64,000 nucleotides of DNA from Capsaspora owczarzaki ATCC 30864 (taxonomy: Eukaryota > Opisthokonta > Filasterea), in assembly GCF_000151315.2 (NCBI RefSeq), contig NW_011887294.1, positions 1,464,601-1,528,600 on the forward strand, written 5' to 3'. Below are positions 4,597-24,526 of this stretch, in pieces; the stretch's first letter is position 1, and every line of letters starts with the position of its first letter. The notes below the pieces were generated by a model. That model searched no databases. It saw nothing but the letters and a program-made list of their open reading frames with translations, and was not told where the DNA came from. The position numbers and the translations under genes were made by a program.

Positions 4597-8639
<4,043 letters not shown>

Positions 8640-11451: not shown

Positions 11452-12981
11452 TCAATCGTCAAAGGTAATCTTGGTGCCTTGGAAGGCACCAAAGGCGGCT
11501 TGCTCTTGCTCTTTGCGCTTGCGACTGGCCTCCCACGATGGATGGGACGCGACGGCATCCTGCTGTGCCGAGTGGGCAGCAGCCTTGGCTGGTGGCGCAG
11601 CTTTGCCAGACGCACCTTTGCCGCCGGGTGCGAGGCCTGCACGGCGCTCCGATCGTCGGTTTGCCGACTTTGGAGTGGTGCCCTTCCCGCTGAACTTGGT
11701 CTTGCCCATCGATTTGGGAGGTGCAGCCTTGGTGGCTGGACGCTCTCCCGTCCGACGGAATTCCGCCTGTTCTCGTCGCTTTTGCTTGAAAAACTCTTGC
11801 TTTTCCTTCTTTTCCTTCTCCTTCTCCTTATCACGCTTTGGCGCAGTCTCCGCTTTGATGGCTTTGCGCATGGCCAAGTAGCGCTCGGCGCGCCGTTTCG
11901 ATTCCTGGCTATTGTCGTCATCGTCGTCGTCAATATCCATATCTTCGACGTCGTCGTCGTCGTCGTCGCTGCTGCCAGCAATCATATGGTCGTGGCGGTC
12001 ATCCACCTCGTCATCCTCGTCATCCTCATCATCATCCTCATGGTCGTCACCGTCTTCGTCAGACTCTTCGCCGTCAGCGCTCGCACGCAGCGAGGAAACA
12101 AAGAATGAGCTGCCGGGAGTGGGCGCTGCTCCGCCCGCTGGCTTCTTCTGGTTCTTCTTCTTGTCCTTGGCCGCCGTCTTGGCAGCTGCCTTGGCGTCCT
12201 GTGGCTTGGGTGCTGGGGCTGGAGGCTTCTCGCCACGGAATTTGCCCAAGAAGGCGACAACGCTCTTGTAGCCGAGAATCTGAGACTCTGCCTTAGCGGC
12301 GGTCGGCGTGCCGGCTCCTTCGCCCACCAGCTTGACCAGCTTTGAGTGCGGCAAGATGCCACTGCCGTCTTCCGGTTGCTGTCTTGGGACGGCCGTTAGC
12401 AGCACGGTGTTGACGCGAGCAGCAAGCGCATCCGGCTTGACTGCCTTGGCAGCGTGGATGAGCTCCAGATCGCGCTGCTGCTGCTGTTGCTCCTGCTTCT
12501 GCGGCGCAGCTTGCTTGGCTTGAGGCGGCGGCTGCGACTGAGCCCGTGTGAGTCGCTGGAGCACGGCCGTCTTGGCGCGCTTGATCTCGCGCTGCAGGTG
12601 GACGACCTCATGGTGCAGCATGGTGGGCGTCATCCGCTTCGACGCCGCAGCCACTTCCTGCTCCTCCTCCGCTGCCCCGCCGGTGCCCTCGAGGCCCTCT
12701 GCGTCTGCATCCGACGAGCTGGTTGCCGTGTTGTGTGTCGGTGCCTTGCCTGGCTTGGTCTTGCTGCGTTGATCCTCGTCCTCGTCCTCGTCCTCGCTCT
12801 CGTCCTGCTGCATGGTCGCCTCGCGGTGCTTCTGGCGCAGTGCTTCCTTGCGTTCGCGCACAATGCGCAATTGCACCATGCGTGTCTGATGCTGCCTCAG
12901 TCGCAGCAGCTCGGTCGGCGTCACTGCGCTCGCGGAGCCCTTCTTCTTCTTGCTGCTGCTGCTGCTGCTCTTTGGCGGCAT
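11452..12981 (-). CDS. BUD22: BUD22/SRFBP1 family ribosome-biogenesis protein
   Basis: Single-exon frame of 509 residues; the chosen start reads MPPKSSSSSSKKKK, and the longer upstream frame lacks coding character. The N-terminal third is helical and basic (LLRLRQHQTRMVQLR, then HHEVVHLQREIKRAK). The middle contains long Asp/Glu tracts alternating with Lys-rich stretches, including a DDDDDDVEDMDIDDDDDD region. The C-terminus has the family hallmark: HPSWEASRKRKEQ followed by FQGTKITFDD. Yeast Bud22 is a nucleolar factor for 18S rRNA processing and 40S assembly; the animal homologue SRFBP1 also binds serum response factor. Nucleolar action is inferred from family and composition. It lies 242 bp from, and divergent to, the aftiphilin gene. 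Confidence 0.85.
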   Translation of the reverse strand: MPPKSSSSSSKKKKGSASAVTPTELLRLRQHQTRMVQLRIVRERKEALRQKHREATMQQDESEDEDEDEDQRSKTKPGKAPTHNTATSSSDADAEGLEGTGGAAEEEQEVAAASKRMTPTMLHHEVVHLQREIKRAKTAVLQRLTRAQSQPPPQAKQAAPQKQEQQQQQRDLELIHAAKAVKPDALAARVNTVLLTAVPRQQPEDGSGILPHSKLVKLVGEGAGTPTAAKAESQILGYKSVVAFLGKFRGEKPPAPAPKPQDAKAAAKTAAKDKKKNQKKPAGGAAPTPGSSFFVSSLRASADGEESDEDGDDHEDDDEDDEDDEVDDRHDHMIAGSSDDDDDDVEDMDIDDDDDDNSQESKRRAERYLAMRKAIKAETAPKRDKEKEKEKKEKQEFFKQKRREQAEFRRTGERPATKAAPPKSMGKTKFSGKGTTPKSANRRSERRAGLAPGGKGASGKAAPPAKAAAHSAQQDAVASHPSWEASRKRKEQEQAAFGAFQGTKITFDD

Positions 12982-13223
12982 CTTCGAGCCAACAAACAAT
13001 GAATGATGGTGATGAGAATGACCAAATTGAAAAAGAGTGATTTTTTTGTCTGTCTGAGAATATTGAAAAATGCTGAACAATCTCAGTTTTGTTTTTCCGG
13101 TTTTTCCAAACCTTTCTTTTTTATTACTGTTATTTTGCATTTTAACACGCTTTTCTTACTCTCTTCCTACTCTTTTTCATCACTTTCCCTACCTTTTCCT
13201 TGCCTTTTGACTTTTTGTTTGCA

Positions 13224-15093: not shown

Positions 15094-18000
15094 TTAAACG
15101 GCGCTTTCCGAATCTCCACCCTCGGGAACATGGACGAGCAGTGGGGCATGCCGCAGCTGCTCTTGCTCGGCCTGAAGCATTTGAAGAGACTTGCGGCGGC
15201 CAAAGCCACTGATTTCCGTAAAGGCACTGAGGTTTGACGGATCGCCGCCTTGACGACGGTTGCTCTCCATTACCTGAATCACGACATCCGGGAAAGAAAG
15301 CTGAACGTGGTCAGCAGCGCTGCCATGCTCGGCAACTGATGCATCTGCTACCGGGCTGGCCTCGTGCACAGCAAGTCGAGACCCGAAAGAGACATGGCCA
15401 GCAGCAACGTCACCCACTGTTTTGCGACGCGGTGGCAGCTCGGCGTAGCCCTCATTCTCGTCAAACGCCTCGGACTCGTCACTGCCGGAGAGGCAGAGCG
15501 GTTCTGAGAACAAGTCACGGGAACTCTGGGAGCCCAAGAGGGACAAGGGGCGAGGCGCTCGCAGCCGGCCGGTCGCAGTCACAGCAGCCATGATGCGGCG
15601 ACGAACAGCTCGCCGACGAAGCTCGTCGGGCTTTGCGCTCGGCGAGCTCGCATGAAGCGCAAAGGCACCTTCTCCGGCAGCGCCAGAGCTGACGGAAGCC
15701 TTCGGCGAGCCAGGAGACGACGACGGCGGCGACTGGGTCTTGTTGTTGTTGTTGTTGTTGTTGTTGGTGTGGCCACCGTCTGCGCTCGGCAGGGGTTGGG
15801 CAGAGCCGTGCGACCCGCCAAAGGATTGCATTCGAAGCAACGCTCCCTTCACTCCTCCAGTGGCAATCAGTCTGCGCCGCAAGTCCGAGCTCGCAAGCTG
15901 AGCCCACTTGGATGTGGGTGGGCGCGGCCCAAACACCTTCTTGCCCTTGACGCCCAGCAAAAAGTACGTGACGCAGTCGCCAATGCCTTTGATGTACCTC
16001 GATTCGCGCACTTGAAACTCAAACGAGTCCTTGAGAATATGGTATGTGGCCTCGCTCACGCAAATCTTGCCCGGTTCGCCGTTGCTTTCCATGCGGCTGG
16101 CAGTGTTGACCGTATCGCCCCACAAGTCGTAGGCAAACTTGCGCGTTCCGACAACACCGGCAATCACGGGGCCCGTGTGAATGCCAATACGCATTTGCAG
16201 TGGCGTGCCATTGATGCCCATGATCTCCATTCGCTGGACATTGAGTGCGAACAAGGCAACGCGCTGGACGTGATTCGGGTAGTAGGTGGGGCATCCGCAG
16301 CATGCCATATCTGCAACACAAAGTTGTCACACAAGTTTGTTGTTAGTGTCAGCGCAGAAAACAGCTCTCAGGAAAAAAAAAAACAAAACAAAACAAAAAA
16401 AAAAAAACTCCCCTGCTCTCGAAAACGTTGAACTTGACCTTCCCCGAATCACAAAACCCCCCATCTACGCAGAAGCGCCGCCTGCCAACAACTTACACGC
16501 ATCACCGATGGTCTTGATCTTTTCCAGCTTGTGCTCATCGGCAAGCTTGTCCATCATGGTAAAGAGCTGGTTGAGCATGCTGACAACATCAGCAGGCGAC
16601 GCGCTATGCGACATGGCGCTAAAGCCCACAATATCCGAGAAAAACACGGTCGCCTCTGGGTGCAAATCGCCGATAAAGTTGACGTCTTCTTGCAAGCGCT
16701 TTGCAACCGAGATGGGGAGAATATTATACAGCAGCGACTCGGCGCGACGCTTCTCGTCCTCGAGCTCGAGCGTGCGCTCTTCGACAATGTCCTCGAGATG
16801 GGTGCTGTACTTTTCGAGCATGAAAGCCATGCGCTCCAACAGGGACTGGCCTGCAATCCGACCCATGGCTTCGAGTTCGCGCACAACCTCGTTGAACTGG
16901 TCAAATCGATTTGCGGGCTCGGGCTCCCAGCAACGCCGCGCAATTGCAGCCATGCTGTGCAACTGTGGATCATCCGAGCGACTGACAACCTCCAGATCTG
17001 GTCGCACAAGAATGCGGTGACGGAGCGAAAACTGGCTGCCAAAGGTCGTGGTTGTTCCATAAAAGTTCCCGCGCCCGCTGGTTGTGCTGAAATTGTCCGC
17101 AATGGCACTCAGGCTCTGATGAGATGGCGAATGACCGCGAGAAGCCTGACCCGAGCGATCAGGTCCGCGACCAAGCCCTGGAAGGCTCGAATCGCTCTGG
17201 TGCGCAATGTGCGAGCGAGCCTCCCTCGGTGGTGCATCGCCAGTGTCTTCAACACTGTCGTCTTCAGAATCCAAGTGGAAGGACTGCGAACGAACGCGAG
17301 ACTCGGAATCCTGGTGAGCAGACTGCGCACGGTGGCGAGACTCGGAATCCAAGTGAACAGACTGCGAGCGCAGACGAGGCTCCGACACCGAGCCGGTGGA
17401 CTGACGGGCCGAAGCGGTGTGCCCAAAGGACGACGTTCCAGCAACGCTGCCTCGAAGGCTCGTCGTTGGGTGCACCGCTGCACCAGCAACAATCCGCCTT
17501 CGGAGCTGGTCGGAGGTCAGCTCGGGCAAGTGGCTGTAGGGAATGTGATGGCCATCCAGCAACTCCCACAGAATAATGCCAAAGGAGTACATGTCTGCCT
17601 TGAACCAGTCAATCGTATGCAAGTCAAGCTCGAGATAGCTGCGCTCGGAAGCATTCGAACGCGTGTCCGATGGCCGAGCCACGTCATCCTCGTCATCGTC
17701 GTCCGGCATGTCAAGCGCGAGGATTTCTGGTGCGACCCACAGAAACGGCGCTCCATGAACGGTGCCGCCGAGGTACCCGTTTGGAAGAGATGGCCCCCCG
17801 ACCGGCGGCACGGAGCTCGCGCTCGCGCTCATGGCAAACGCAGCGGGGTTTGGTGAAGGCGAGCGCAGCATTACTGGAGGACCAGCCGGAACAGCCAAGA
17901 GAGACGATGGGTGCGTCGGTGTGCCTTGCTGCTGCTGCTGCTGCTGCTGCTGGGTCTGCTGCTGATGTTGCGGCGAGCCTGGCGGAGAGTGAGACACTGG

Positions 18001-21000
18001 AATGGCAGGCGCGCTCAGTGCCTTGTGTGCACGACCGAGAGCGGCCGCTATTCCATTGGAGCTTCGCGGCGTGGTTGGCGAGGAGGCAGATGCTCCATTG
18101 GTCGCGTCTGGACCGATCAAGTCGATGGCAAGCGACCCGGAGGGCGACGAGGATCGCTCCGTAGGCAAACTTGCGACGGTAGGCTGGTGGTTGGCAGGGT
18201 TGCCCGAGAACAGCATATCGGCACGCGACTCGCCCATGATCGAGTGGAGCCCAAATCCTGAAATTTTGCACACAAAGCGATCGTCGACAAGGATTTTGCT
18301 GGAACGCAGCCGTCCGTGTGCGATGCCACGCTCATGCAAAAATGCCAGACCTCGGGCAGCGTCCATGGCCATGCAAAATTTAAAATGAATATCCAGCGGA
18401 ATGCTCGAGAATCGCAGCACGTCGGCGAGACTGCCTTTTGCGCAGTAGTCAAACACGAGGTAGCGAGGCGTCGGGGGCACACGCGTGCAGCCATGAAACT
18501 CAACCACGTTCGGGTGTCGCAGCTCTCGCAACTTGACAAAGTCTGGGGCAAGCCGGTTGAGCAGGCTGGCTTCTTCGACCTCGGGATTGGCTGAAGGTTG
18601 AGCAACCCAGCGAGCCCGTTGTCTCAAGCGCTGCGTCGAAGCTTGCATGGCGCTACTGATTTTCGCAGCCGTGGAGCGACGGAAGAGGGCGTTTTTACCA
18701 TTTGGAGGGAATTGGGATCCGCCACCACCACCAGAGGAGAGCTCCTCCATGGCAAACTCCTCAGAACCAGAGCTTCCGTTGGAGGCGCTTCCATCGTTGC
18801 CCGCATTGTTTCCGCCATTGGGAGAGCCGATCGTATGGGGGCTACTTCGTCGAACAACGGCCATGGTGAGCGGCGTGTAGCGAATCAAGTACACGAGTTT
18901 GTGCTCAAACCGAGCCGTGTGAGGAACGTTGTCCACCACCTCAATGTCGGTAAGCGCATTAAAGTCTATCTGCCATTGCTGCAGGGCCTCAAGCTCTTTC
19001 TGCCGCTTGTACTGCCGCTGGCGCCACACGGTCAAGCCAACCAGCGCAACAATGACAATCGCCATGACAATGAGGCCAGCGATCGCGCCAGGACTCAGAA
19101 CGTCCTCCTCGCCGGCAGCAGGATTGCGAATGTTCGGATAGGCAGCGTCAATCAGCGCCTGCTGGGCCGTTGCCAGCTTGTCCAATGCAGCTTTGGAGCT
19201 CATGTCGCCGAAAAGAGCACGAGTCACATAGCGATTGGTCATGTCGATGAGTGCAGGTGCTTCTTTCAAGCCCCACGTCCCGGAGGCGAATGGATACGCG
19301 AGCGAATACACGTTGGTGAGCATGTCGTTGGAGCTGAGCTGAAGTAGAACGATGATCGCCACAACCCAAGTCAAGTCTGCAGTGCAATCTGGCGGACTGG
19401 CAGTGGCTGAAACGGGGGAGGCGAAGGAGGCTGCGGTAGATGTCGGCACCGACGACGACGACGACGACGACGACGAGGAGGTCGAATTGTTCACGCACAA
19501 CAGATCAAGCAGTACCGAAATGGCATCCTCCAAGTTTTGACCTAGCTGCAACAATGTAGAACTGACCGAGAGACCGCTACAAGACTGCGACCAAAAGGCT
19601 TGGTTTTCCCACCGCGAAATGTAGTTGACCAGCGCGGAGGCCTCGGCGACATACGGGGATCCATTCACAACGGCAATGCCATAACCACCCATCAAGTTTC
19701 GTCTCTGAGGGAGCTCTGTGCCAGCGAGCGTGGATTGCTGAAAGGCCGGGATGGCGAACACACCAAGATCGTTGTTGTTGGTGAAGCACTTTTGCCATTG
19801 AGGGCCTCCAACAATGGACGAGTCGGTGCTATTGACGTGAGGGATCGAACTGCTCCATAGCTGCAAAAAGGCGACTTTGCCCGAGCAAAACAGCTCGATA
19901 TTTCGCTCAATCTCGTTGGTTGCGTCTGGAGGGGATTGGAGCCCAACAAACGCGTCGTCCGTTGGCCCAGTGGCGACAAGTTGCTTGATGAGCTCAAGAG
20001 CGGCCACGTTGACTGGAGAGTTGATGTAGCCTTCCACTTCGTAGGTGGTCGGATTCCACAGCGCACCACTTGCAAGATACGCATACGTCAAGAAGAGCGA
20101 AAACGAGCGGTCTTGGCAGGTAGAAAGCGAGTCCCCATTGTGTTGGGTACACCAGCTGGCTGAAAAGCCAAACTGAGTAATGTTGTGTTGTTGCAGAAAC
20201 TCGGCTTGCTTCACCAGCTGCTGCAGCGATAGCGGAGGGCGGTAAATGTGTGTCTTGCACAGGCCGAGATATACGAGCTCCACGGGGCAAACATCAGCGG
20301 TCTGCTGAACATAGAAGAGGTCGTTTGTTTTCGTGTCGTTCAGTTGGGCGGCGACGCGTGCACCCTCAATCATTGGCGTCAACCGAAACATGATTGTTTG
20401 CACGTCGCCTTCCAGCGGATAGCCATATGCGTTTTGAGAAGTCTGAGGGTACTGTTAAACACGAGCAATCAAGCAAGAACGGGAAACCAAAAGGAGCAAC
20501 AAGGAATGAAGGAGAACAAACAAGGGGGGGGGGATGGCTCCAAAAGAAGAAATCAAAAGAAGACGAAGCAAAAAAAAAGCGAAAAAAGACGACTTGAAAT
20601 ACTCACACTAAAGAATGCAGTCGTGCCAGAATTGACCCAGTCCGAAGAAGGGTTGCTGGCCACAGGGGTCCAGCGCGTGACAAGACTGCTGTTGACCGCA
20701 TACGGTAGCCACTGCCATACCAAGCGAGGACGAAAACAAAAGTGAATGAACCAAGGTGAGACAAAATTGGACAGCGAACAGCGTCAAAGCAGAATCCATC
20801 CACCCTACCATTTCGTTGAACATGACCAAATCATAGTCTAAGATGGATGCACTTGCAGACTGATTCGAATACAGAATGTCAAACCTGCAACAAACAAAAA
20901 AAAAAAAAAAACGAAAACAAAAACAAAGTGAGATTTGCAAAATCGTACCATCTCATTTCAACAATAACAGACAGCATGGAAGCGCCAAAAGAGCGTGAGA

Positions 21001-21853
21001 TAGAGAGGAAGGCACATCATCAGAGGCTGACGTGTATGCCTTTTTTTTTTCGTCACCCTGACAATCTGCGCAGATTTCGCATTGGAAAAGGGGGGGGGAT
21101 TGCCGCTTACCACGTCGAATACGGCAGACAATCAATTTCAACCGCCGCAATGTCCGCGTCGAAAGCCGCGACGAGATTGCGAAACTCGCTGCACGAGGGC
21201 GAATCATGCCAGAGAACGCGCAGGACGGGTGGCAGAAGGTACGCGCTGCTGCTGCTGCTGTCTGAGGCGGCTGCCTCGCCCTCACGCCGCTCAGCACTGC
21301 TACGACGACTGCTGCGAGTGCGAGTGCGAGTGCGCGGCTGGCCCGCACCCATCTGCTGCTGCCGACGTAGCTTCTTCCTCTGCAAAAGCTGCTCGCGGCC
21401 GCTCAGCTCCTCGTCGCTGCGCACGGCGCGGTTTGTGACTGCTCGGAGCCACGCAGATGACAGGGCGGTCGGGTCGCTTTCGCCTCGCTCCTGCCGCCGC
21501 CGCCGCCGGTCGACGACGCGGGCAAGGGCCTCGGGTGTGACTGCGTCTCCTTCTTGCTGTTGCTGGTGCTCATTGTCTGGCACAGCACCCGCGGACGTGA
21601 GCTCGAGGTAGGCGAGAACGTGCTCAATGGCGCGCTCGCTCGGCGGGGCAGTCGCCTGCTCAGTCCACGCCTGCGCCGCTTTTGCCAGCGCCGCCCACTT
21701 GCTGTTGCTGCTGTGGTCGGCTGATGGCCCTGCCCGTCGACCCGGTGGCCGAGCGCGGTCGGAGTGTGCGTCTGCAGCGAGCACTGCGGTTGTTGCCACG
21801 AGCCACAAAAGTAGCAGCAGCAAAAGCCGAGCCACTGAACGCTGGTTCCTCAT
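15094..21853 (-). CDS. Receptor-type class III cyclase with solute-binding-protein ectodomain
   Basis: Five exons in transcript order, 21853-21111, 20884-20809, 20711-20607, 20451-16497 and 16310-15094, give about 2,031 residues. A signal peptide (RLLLLLLLWLVATTAVLA) precedes an ectodomain ending near residue 760. From about residue 225 this resembles bacterial family 1 sugar-binding proteins: YDLVMFNEMWLPYA, YGYPLEGD, FCSGKVAFLQLW and LMGGYGIAVV. One membrane helix (GAIAGLIVMAIVIVALVG) follows. A kinase-homology domain has HGRLRSSKILVD and GFG instead of HRD and DFG, so it is a pseudokinase like that of receptor guanylyl cyclases. The catalytic domain (about 1545-1800) has FFSDIVGFSAM, KIKTIGDAYM, YDLWGDTVNTASRMESNG. 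Lys and Asp at the two base-selecting positions predict ATP rather than GTP as substrate. A basic, disordered tail ends the protein. Confidence 0.9.
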
Positions 21854-22522: not shown

Positions 22523-24526
22523 ATGACCACAGTGATGATGTCGATGACAATGGCATCCACTGCCGCGACACGGACGGCGACGGCACTGCGACGCGGAAGA
22601 CTGCCGCTGCTGCGGTCATCAGTCGCGCTCGTCACGGCTTCGTCCTACTCGACGTCCGCTCGACCCGCGATCGCCGCTTCATCAGCATTGCTACGAGCCA
22701 GCCACACACGCTGCTCCATGGCATCGGCTCCATCCTCTGCGCAATGCAGCGTCCATACTCTCCTCATCCTATCGTCTCGACTCGTCCTTCATCGCGAGCC
22801 ATGTCGTCCTCTTTCTCATCGTCGTCCTCCACTCCGACGACACCGTCCTCTATGTTACGCATAGCATCAACGAGAGCACATCAAAGTGAATTGGATGGCC
22901 GAGTCTGGCGAACTGGCTCTGGCAACTGGGAACTGGGAACTGGAACTGGGTTGTCTGCCCTTCCTTTGGATTCTGCCGCTATGGCCTCTGTGGGCGTCAA
23001 ACATCCTATATCTCACACTGGCCGAACTCCTGATTGCACATCTGGATTGTTTGTTGCTTGTTTTGCCTAAAAAAAAAATCCTTGGCTTAGATCTCCGGTT
23101 GTTGCAATCGGTCGCTTGCTGGACGCAACGCAGGGCACTGCACCATTCACTTACTCGCCAGGACAGGTAAGAACCTGCCTCAAACAGTCGCGCCACTGAC
23201 AATCTAACACATTGCAAACAAAAAAGTCACGTTGGCACGACGCCGGGGTGGTCTCTCTTGCATAGCTTGTGAAGAACTCACTCCGTTTCCAATTTCGTTG
23301 CTCGCTCTGCTTGACAGCTCTTCATCCACCGTTTGTTCGGATATCGATGCGTCGTCATTGATTACTGGCAGGCGGATCTTGTTGTCACACAGCCATCCTC
23401 GTCCACAAGCAACGCCACTGCGACTGCACACCCCAGTTTGGCCGCTTTGACGGCTGGGTTGCCGCAGCCTCCCATGGACGCCTCTTTTCGAGCACCATCC
23501 GTAACGCCATCCTCGCCACACGACGAAACGACCTCCATTACAGAGCCTGGTGCCAAGCACATAATTGACCTCGTTCGCTCGGCGATGCGGAAGAAGGACT
23601 ATTACATTGCCGTGCCAGATTTGAAGGATCGCACCGAGCGGCATACCGCATCGTTCTTGTTTGTTGCCCCGGAAGATATGATTCCGTATCTACCAATCGC
23701 CTCACACACGTTCTATTCGCCAATTCTTCACGAGTGGTTTCACGCCCTGCCCGCTTCCCCTCCTCCCGCTTCTCAGCAGCAGTCCGGTGCGCCCAAGCAG
23801 TCACGTTTCTCGAAATCCAAGCAGTCGCAACAGCAGCAACAGCAGCAACAACAGCAGCAACAACAGCAACAGCAACAACCACCGCAGCGACATCAGCAAC
23901 AACAGCCGACACAAACTCGACAATAATCTCAACCCAACGAAGCCGAACCAACAATCGTCACGGATGTTGTGCCATCGGACGCCCCTGTCCAGTCTGCGGC
24001 GCCAGCCAAATCCTCCAGCAGTGGAAAGCCTGCCATCCCGAAGATTGACTACGTTCGCTATGTGCCCACTGGCAAACTGAACCCGCTTCGAGCGCGAACA
24101 GCAACGGTGAGGCAGTATTCCAAGGTTTATGTCCAAACCACGGACAGCATCCGGGTGACTGTCGTCCCCTGGTACTTTGGCTTTACTGCTGCACACAACT
24201 CGTTTGTCTGGACTGTCAACCTTGTGATTGAGAATCTTGGGGACGCCACAGTGCAGCTGCGACGACGCCACTGGACCATCACCGATGCGAGCGGCCGCAT
24301 GCGCGAGGTCAGTGGATCGGGTGTCGCGCACGGTGCCGAGCCGGTCTTTGTGCCGAATTCTTCTTCGAGCTACGAGTACACCATGGGCGTCGAGTCTACA
24401 ACTAGCCACGGCAACATGAAGGGAATGTACGAATTCGACGTGATCGAGCCGAACAAGACTTCCAAGCTATTCGTCAACGTTCCACAGTTTGTGCTCGAGT
24501 CCCCACCATTCACGCACGACAACTGA
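22523..24526 (+). CDS. POLDIP2: POLDIP2-like mitochondrial protein (YccV and ApaG domains)
   Basis: Proposed exons 22523-22614, 23091-23166, 23318-23786 and 23943-24526 close in frame to about 406 residues (human 368). The first exon encodes an Arg-rich, acid-free N-terminus (TATALRRGRLPLLR) typical of a mitochondrial presequence. The YccV-like domain follows: AIGRLLDA, YSPGQLFIHRLFGYRCVV, then DYYIAVPDLKDR and EDMIPYLPI. The C-terminal ApaG beta-sandwich shows TTDSIRVTVVPWYFG, NLVIENLGDATVQLRRRHW, GSGVAHGAEPVF and the G-x-M-x-G-x-Y/F motif. POLDIP2 is reported in mitochondrial protein turnover and primase-polymerase/DNA polymerase interactions. The donor of exon 1 (GTCATC) is unusual and that exon is the weakest part. 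The last intron is a CAG/CAA repeat region (see findings). Confidence 0.87.
23826..23880 (+). repeat. CAG/CAA trinucleotide repeat
   Basis: About 18 mixed CAG/CAA units starting after the AAGCAGTCG triplets, followed by further Gln codons to about 23923. Read in the POLDIP2 frame it would encode polyglutamine, but an in-frame TAA at 23924-23926 follows, and a GTGCGC..GAAG intron (23787-23942) would remove the tract. Confidence 0.9.

Follow-up and report, generated by a model that had tools for sequence, protein, structure and literature searches.

A putative receptor adenylyl cyclase with a bacterial-type solute-binding ectodomain in the filasterean Capsaspora owczarzaki

What kind of receptor results when the layout of an animal receptor guanylyl cyclase (rGC) is joined to an ectodomain of bacterial type and to the active-site residues of an adenylyl cyclase? 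The question is raised by a gene of Capsaspora owczarzaki ATCC 30864, here termed R1, on contig NW_011887294.1 of RefSeq assembly GCF_000151315.2. It lies within the 64,000-nucleotide stretch analysed (forward-strand positions 1,464,601 to 1,528,600; hereafter the window, to which the R1 coordinates refer). Two paralogues elsewhere in the genome are termed R2 and R3, and the three together R. Sequence comparison makes it likely that R1 is a ligand-gated single-pass receptor adenylyl cyclase that shares ancestry with the animal rGCs. A preliminary description of the gene was confirmed as to coordinates, domain order, ectodomain and key residues, and its overall reading was partly supported.

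Layout of R1 and its active site

R1 is encoded on the minus strand, from an ATG at 21853 to a stop codon ending at 15094 (exact coordinates), in five exons whose four introns are all of the GT...AG type and which join into a single open frame of 2031 amino acids (aa). The junction of exons 2 and 3 (MFNEM/WLPYA) finds support in a bacterial relative, which reads YDLVNMDVIWTPKFA across it. The exons and the regions of the encoded protein are as follows.

21111..21853, minus: exon 1; signal-like segment (aa 1-27), then a low-complexity stretch and, from aa 212, the beginning of the ectodomain N-lobe; from open frame, GT donor and hydropathy
20809..20884, minus: exon 2; ectodomain N-lobe, ...YDLVMFNEM; from splice sites and alignment with YDLVNMDVI of a Nostoc solute-binding protein
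20607..20711, minus: exon 3; ectodomain, WLPYAVNSSLV...
16497..20451, minus: exon 4; from the remaining ectodomain through membrane helix, pseudokinase and signalling helix into the first third of the cyclase
15094..16310, minus: exon 5; remaining cyclase, low-complexity C-terminal tail and stop, without a second kinase domain
19099..21220, minus: ectodomain of solute-binding-protein type, about aa 212-759, the span including three introns; from PF13416, hhalign, shuffle z and tblastn
19027..19083, minus: predicted transmembrane helix, aa 765-783; strong hydropathy (2.96)
16894..18912, minus: pseudokinase domain (kinase homology), aa 822-1494, interrupted by long low-complexity inserts; from Pfam and PDB alignments
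16714..16818, minus: signalling-helix or dimerisation segment, aa 1520-1554, collinear with LEELVEERT...EALLYQILP of GC-A
15946..16713, minus: class III cyclase catalytic region, aa 1555-1748, the span including one intron; from Pfam

From the N-terminus, a signal-like segment and the ectodomain are thus followed by a single strong membrane helix, then by the pseudokinase, the signalling helix and the class III cyclase. The preliminary description had likened this order to that of the rGCs, and Pfam, hydropathy and an in-order alignment with the rGC GC-A, the natriuretic receptor (281 bits), bear this out. The Pfam scan covered R1 up to aa 1788, with the C-terminal tail scanned separately, and the signal and membrane calls come from hydropathy rather than a dedicated predictor. 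Hydropathy places the signal-like segment at aa 7-25, which together with the one strong helix is consistent with a single-pass receptor bearing an extracellular domain. A weaker hydrophobic stretch (aa 664-686, hydropathy at most 1.68) lies inside the ectodomain; it was rejected as a second membrane crossing on account of this weak hydropathy and of its alignment with part of the R2 ectodomain, which falls short of proof.

The cyclase domain scored 204 bits against Guanylate_cyc in Pfam. The motif EKIKTIGDAYM (aa 1618-1628) and the segment YDLWGDTVNTASR (aa 1687-1699) place Lys1621 and Asp1688 at the two base-selecting sites, which in GC-A and GC-C are occupied by Glu and Cys, in agreement with the preliminary description. 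Lys and Asp are present in all three paralogues (3/3), and the C2 domains of AC5, AC8 and AC9 carry the same pair. Among bacterial class III adenylyl cyclases (Cupriavidus, Mycobacterium, Sinorhizobium), compared with R1 over the cyclase stretches only, Lys/Asp was likewise found in the six rows, out of 14, in which both motifs could be read (6/6). R1 also has D1581 and D1625, which we take to be the metal-binding aspartates, and N1695 and R1699, presumably the transition-state Asn and Arg, and so carries the class III adenylyl cyclase residue set of Lys/Asp, two metal Asp, Asn and Arg. The specificity residues of the active site are therefore of the adenylyl cyclase kind, and the predicted product would be cyclic AMP (cAMP).

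According to one study, ATP specificity is set by Lys together with Asp or Thr, guanylyl cyclases having Glu together with Cys or Ser instead, and the specificity determinants of guanylyl cyclases are still poorly understood (PMC7384201). Two residues may accordingly not fix the specificity fully, and R1 might be a guanylyl or dual-specificity cyclase despite its Lys/Asp pair. Nine class III cyclase domains were read from this genome; their first base-selecting site is Lys in eight, Arg in one and guanylyl-type Glu in none, so that cyclic GMP (cGMP) would need another source. We nevertheless regard such a specificity as very improbable, given the Lys/Asp pair that all three paralogues share with the C2 domains of the adenylyl cyclases named above.

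An ectodomain of bacterial solute-binding type

The region preceding the membrane helix matched SBP_bac_8 (PF13416) in Pfam with 31.8 bits, above the cut-off of 27, and SBP_bac_1 (PF01547) with 19.1-20 bits, below the cut-off of 26; at E up to 1 these were the only two families returned, ANF_receptor not being among them. A set of 117 solute-binding relatives was assembled, of which 80 were kept and 15 aligned (L066, which has a stop, L094 and L100 were left out). When compared to these 15 cyanobacterial solute-binding proteins by hhalign, a joint R1 and R2 ectodomain profile gave 97.3% with an E-value of 2e-11, as against 0.1% for the pseudokinase alignment used as a control. When the ectodomains were aligned directly with four solute-binding proteins from cyanobacteria, with 200 shuffles per comparison, z was 12.1-14.6 for R1 and 12.5-21.3 for R2; the controls remained at 0.2 (R1) and 0.1 (R2) for the ectodomains against an unrelated cyclase, and at -0.8 to 1.0 for the R1 pseudokinase against the same four proteins. 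Chance likeness was rejected on these shuffles and negative controls.

Searching plasmids with the ectodomain by tblastn returned 88 records up to an E-value of 1, of which Sinorhizobium contributed 65; the top-listed row had an E-value of 2e-3, and the annotation, where present among the 20 listed, was 'extracellular solute-binding protein'. The top-listed plasmid relative of the R2 ectodomain is an unannotated Nostoc sequence (E 1e-5), followed 26 bases later by an open frame that we take to encode a sugar-type ATP-binding cassette (ABC) permease. R1 and its bacterial relatives have a SPP...LF-SG-VAFL--W stretch in common, at an overall identity of 23-28%. These comparisons show homology between the R1 ectodomain and bacterial type-II solute-binding proteins; with family 1/8 proteins of the cyanobacterial ABC type it extends, in R1 and R2, over most of the domain (z 12-21). 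The preliminary description had proposed a family 1 sugar-binding protein: the bacterial solute-binding type held in PF13416, hhalign and z, whereas the best family for R1 is SBP_bac_8 and not SBP_bac_1, which R2 passes.

Searches of the PDB gave results that count against this. A phmmer search of the PDB with the R1 ectodomain found no solute-binding protein, and the joint R1 and R2 profile found a single chain, 5ysb (Lin1841; E 0.012), which is presumably an oligosaccharide-binding protein. The two-lobed fold is a prediction from sequence.

Bacterial relatives of the ectodomain bind solutes for ABC import. The bacterial protein is a free import subunit, and its counterpart in R1 is part of a membrane receptor, for which a putative role in nutrient sensing is plausible. 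We propose that R1 would sit in the plasma membrane as a single-pass, probably dimeric receptor whose extracellular type-II (Venus-flytrap) domain closes around a small ligand, with a carbohydrate or oligosaccharide as the likeliest candidate. This motion would travel through the one membrane helix and the dead kinase-homology domain to the signalling-helix coiled coil, which would align two identical class III cyclase domains for conversion of ATP to cAMP.

Alternatively, the ectodomain may have degenerated into a dimerisation or protein-binding module, leaving a receptor that is controlled by a protein or lipid, or by no external signal at all. R1 does contain a poly-Ser insert and other insertions compared with its relatives, and an identity of 23-28% cannot establish that the pocket is retained. 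We consider this unlikely, as R1 and R2 retain the same fold family and R3 has an ectodomain from another solute-binding family, a pattern that fits a binding role. The R2 ectodomain, 25% identical to that of R1, matches SBP_bac_1 with 28 bits (cut-off 26), and that of R3 matches OpuAC (glycine-betaine-binding) with 38.2 bits (cut-off 21.2). Both paralogues further have a membrane helix (assigned by eye), a pseudokinase, a signalling helix and a Lys/Asp cyclase. By its sequence, then, the genome has at least three receptor cyclase genes with two kinds of bacterial-type ectodomain.

OpuAC was found at seven places in the genome, of which one is R3 and four lie near 7tm_3. The four, at C9, C2:683k, C11 and C1:3121k, are in or beside frames with 7tm_3 (130-169 bits), and each was taken, by position, as one putative gene; OpuAC is above the cut-off within the scanned frame in two of the four. 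The class C seven-helix receptor frames are as follows.

L127:3383-5458 (C9): class C 7TM frame
L128:2601-4655 (C2): class C 7TM frame
L129:2456-3745 (C11): class C 7TM frame
L130:3630-5027 (C1): class C 7TM frame

No cyclase match was found in the scanned OpuAC-7tm_3 frames, and these receptors differ from R1-R3 in this respect and in their seven membrane helices. ANF_receptor is the ectodomain of animal rGCs; in C. owczarzaki it was found at five places, none of them at the cyclase loci found (0/5). In animals, ANF_receptor also occurs on glutamate receptors (PMC12716839). The presence of OpuAC on both R3 and class C receptors hence indicates that one ectodomain kind serves both receptor types, like ANF_receptor in animals. 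Class C G-protein-coupled receptors (GPCRs) bearing SBP_bac_1 and OpuAC are described for Allomyces by Krishnan et al. (PMC3251606), so that these receptors, like those of this genome, have a pool of periplasmic-binding ectodomains in common with R1-R3.

Origin of the intracellular half

The pseudokinase of R1 scored 87.8 bits against PK_Tyr_Ser-Thr (Pfam) and has lost its kinase catalytic motifs, with HGR in place of HRD and GFG in place of DFG. The motif HGRLRSSKILVD at aa 1020-1031 corresponds in the alignments to HGNLKSSNCVVD in GC-A and HGRLKSTNCVVD in GC-C, which agrees with the rGC-like pseudokinase signature reported earlier for this gene. The following signalling helix gave a C-terminal HNOBA match of 22.7, just below the cut-off of 23.4. 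After manual removal of long inserts, pseudokinase, coiled coil and cyclase of R1 aligned in order to GC-A with 281 bits and to GC-C with 244 bits.

R1 therefore has in common with GC-A (NPR1) and GC-C the order of ectodomain, helix, pseudokinase, signalling helix and class III cyclase, the HG-L-S motif, a kinase-homology domain devoid of catalytic residues and the signalling helix. It differs in its Lys/Asp pair and large low-complexity inserts (Glu/Cys in GC-A and GC-C) and in its type-II ectodomain, compared to ANF_receptor in GC-A. The ANF_receptor ectodomain of GC-A is of type I. As R1 has neither Glu/Cys nor ANF_receptor, we describe its plan as rGC-like and do not class it as an rGC.

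Receptor cyclases with an extracellular or transmembrane part, a kinase and a cyclase are also described for Acanthamoeba and Physarum, where two kinase domains flank the cyclase; R1 has one, dead and upstream (PMC4053784, PMC4758236). No second kinase domain was found after the R1 cyclase in the Pfam scan, which included the C-terminal tail, and the Acanthamoeba-type arrangement was thus rejected. No gene of the R1 kind was named in the titles or abstract openings of the literature searched, a scope outside which most subscription papers fall.

The intracellular half of R1-R3 (pseudokinase, signalling helix and cyclase) is probably homologous to that of animal rGCs, with a single origin of the whole module. 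The rival explanation is an independent origin: a kinase-like domain and a class III adenylyl cyclase of bacterial type, signalling helix included, would have become fused in this lineage, and the likeness to rGCs would be convergent. The pseudokinase speaks to both. When the core alone was used as query, for R1 and R3, the best match was GC-A in each case: 59.8 bits for R1 among 177,635 PDB sequences (next protein Lck, 50.6) and 66.0 bits for R3 (next CTR1, 63.8). With a whole-domain profile of the three paralogues, EGFR, CTR1, 7t6f (labelled tyrosine-protein kinase) and TYK2 all scored above GC-A, which makes the pseudokinase a partial support for kinship with GC-A.

For the cyclase domain we constructed a tree of 25 rows: R1-R3, GC-A, GC-C, both domains each of the transmembrane adenylyl cyclases AC5, AC8 and AC9, and 14 hand-picked bacterial rows (eight from the 40 listed of 594 records, six from the 40 listed of 132). 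The tree is thin, as soluble guanylyl cyclases, rhodopsin guanylyl cyclases and protist cyclases have no rows in it. The grouping of R1-R3 was firm (bootstrap 98-100), and the R and rGC groups fell into a polytomy in which no fork above 80 joined R to any group. After the first tree the long-branched rows of Hartmannibacter, Caballeronia and Aliiroseovarius were removed, leaving 11 bacterial rows. R with rGC then became the best placement (89/91), as it was for the catalytic part alone (74/87) and after the addition of two viral rows (93/83), these being the two relatives among 380 pattern matches in a scan of viral contigs with the cyclase alignment. All three supports are below the threshold for firm support.

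Together with the whole-domain kinase profile, two further results count against common ancestry and in favour of convergence. The approximately unbiased test did not reject a grouping of R with either bacterial cyclases or transmembrane adenylyl cyclases (p-AU 0.20-0.32, the value for Cupriavidus/Burkholderia cyclases being 0.32), and the 11 bacterial cyclases are 42-51% identical to R1 (the nearest 50-51%), a range that takes in the 47% of GC-A. The order of pseudokinase, signalling helix and cyclase is, on the other hand, identical to that of GC-A, the kinase cores tested both point to GC-A, and R with rGC is the best placement in each tree freed of long branches. We thus judge an independent origin improbable and prefer shared ancestry. 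The possibility, raised in the preliminary description, of an intermediate between the cyclase classes does not extend to the active site, whose residues are adenylyl-type; the architecture as a whole may qualify, a point that the tree does not settle.

A 2006 analysis has rGCs arising early in eumetazoan evolution (PMC1435932). The occurrence of the same intracellular plan with adenylyl residues in a filasterean would place the plan before animals. More speculatively, and in our estimate with somewhat less than even chances, animal rGCs may descend from R-type receptor adenylyl cyclases. The ancestor, in unicellular relatives of animals, would have combined a swappable periplasmic-binding ectodomain with pseudokinase, signalling helix and Lys/Asp cyclase; in animals, Glu would later have replaced Lys, Cys would have replaced Asp, and an ANF_receptor ectodomain would have been retained. 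Receptor cyclases and class C GPCRs would have drawn on one ectodomain pool before or alongside the origin of animals. With R1, the change from adenylyl to guanylyl cyclase could be tested within a single protein family, and R1-R3 may offer an entry to cAMP signalling in C. owczarzaki, with ligands that can be screened.

Other cyclases and neighbouring genes

The genome (27.46 Mb in 29 contigs) was searched with profiles exon by exon. PF00211 matched at 14 places, which were grouped into seven genes: R1, R2 (C12), R3 (C2) and four others. Genome searches with PF13416 and PF01547 matched R1 alone, yet a scan of the R2 frame itself puts R2 above the PF01547 cut-off; exon-wise searches thus undercount, making seven genes a lower bound and the absences soft. 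Among these seven, the receptor-like plan was found in R1, R2 and R3 only. HNOB, the haem domain of soluble guanylyl cyclases, was not found in the exon-wise genome search, likewise a soft absence.

Of the four non-receptor genes, L019 (C3:803-808 kb) and L022 (C7:832-841 kb) encode LRR, PP2C and cyclase domains, a plan that resembles fungal Cyr1; the cyclase of L019 shares the frame of the other domains, and that of L022 lies in later exons. L020 (C1:856-861 kb) is a single open frame of 2220 codons with C2, RasGAP, two cyclase and three LIM domains, and the fourth gene, which was partly scanned, has two cyclase domains. No sets of six membrane helices were found in the frames of these four genes. 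The genome further contains three phosphodiesterase loci and eight loci with cyclic nucleotide-binding (cNMP) matches, one of the eight below the cut-off.

A long GT repeat lies within an intron of R2, shortly before the signalling-helix exon (L017, about 7330-7600). Four T-box loci (six matches) and two Runt loci were also recorded. The frame at L135:2855-4810 joins pentaxin, laminin-G-like and bacterial Ig-like domains, and no 7tm_3 was found in it. In the window, R1 is flanked by the following genes.

11455-13140, minus: BUD22-family protein
23936-24523, plus: ApaG (DUF525) domain protein

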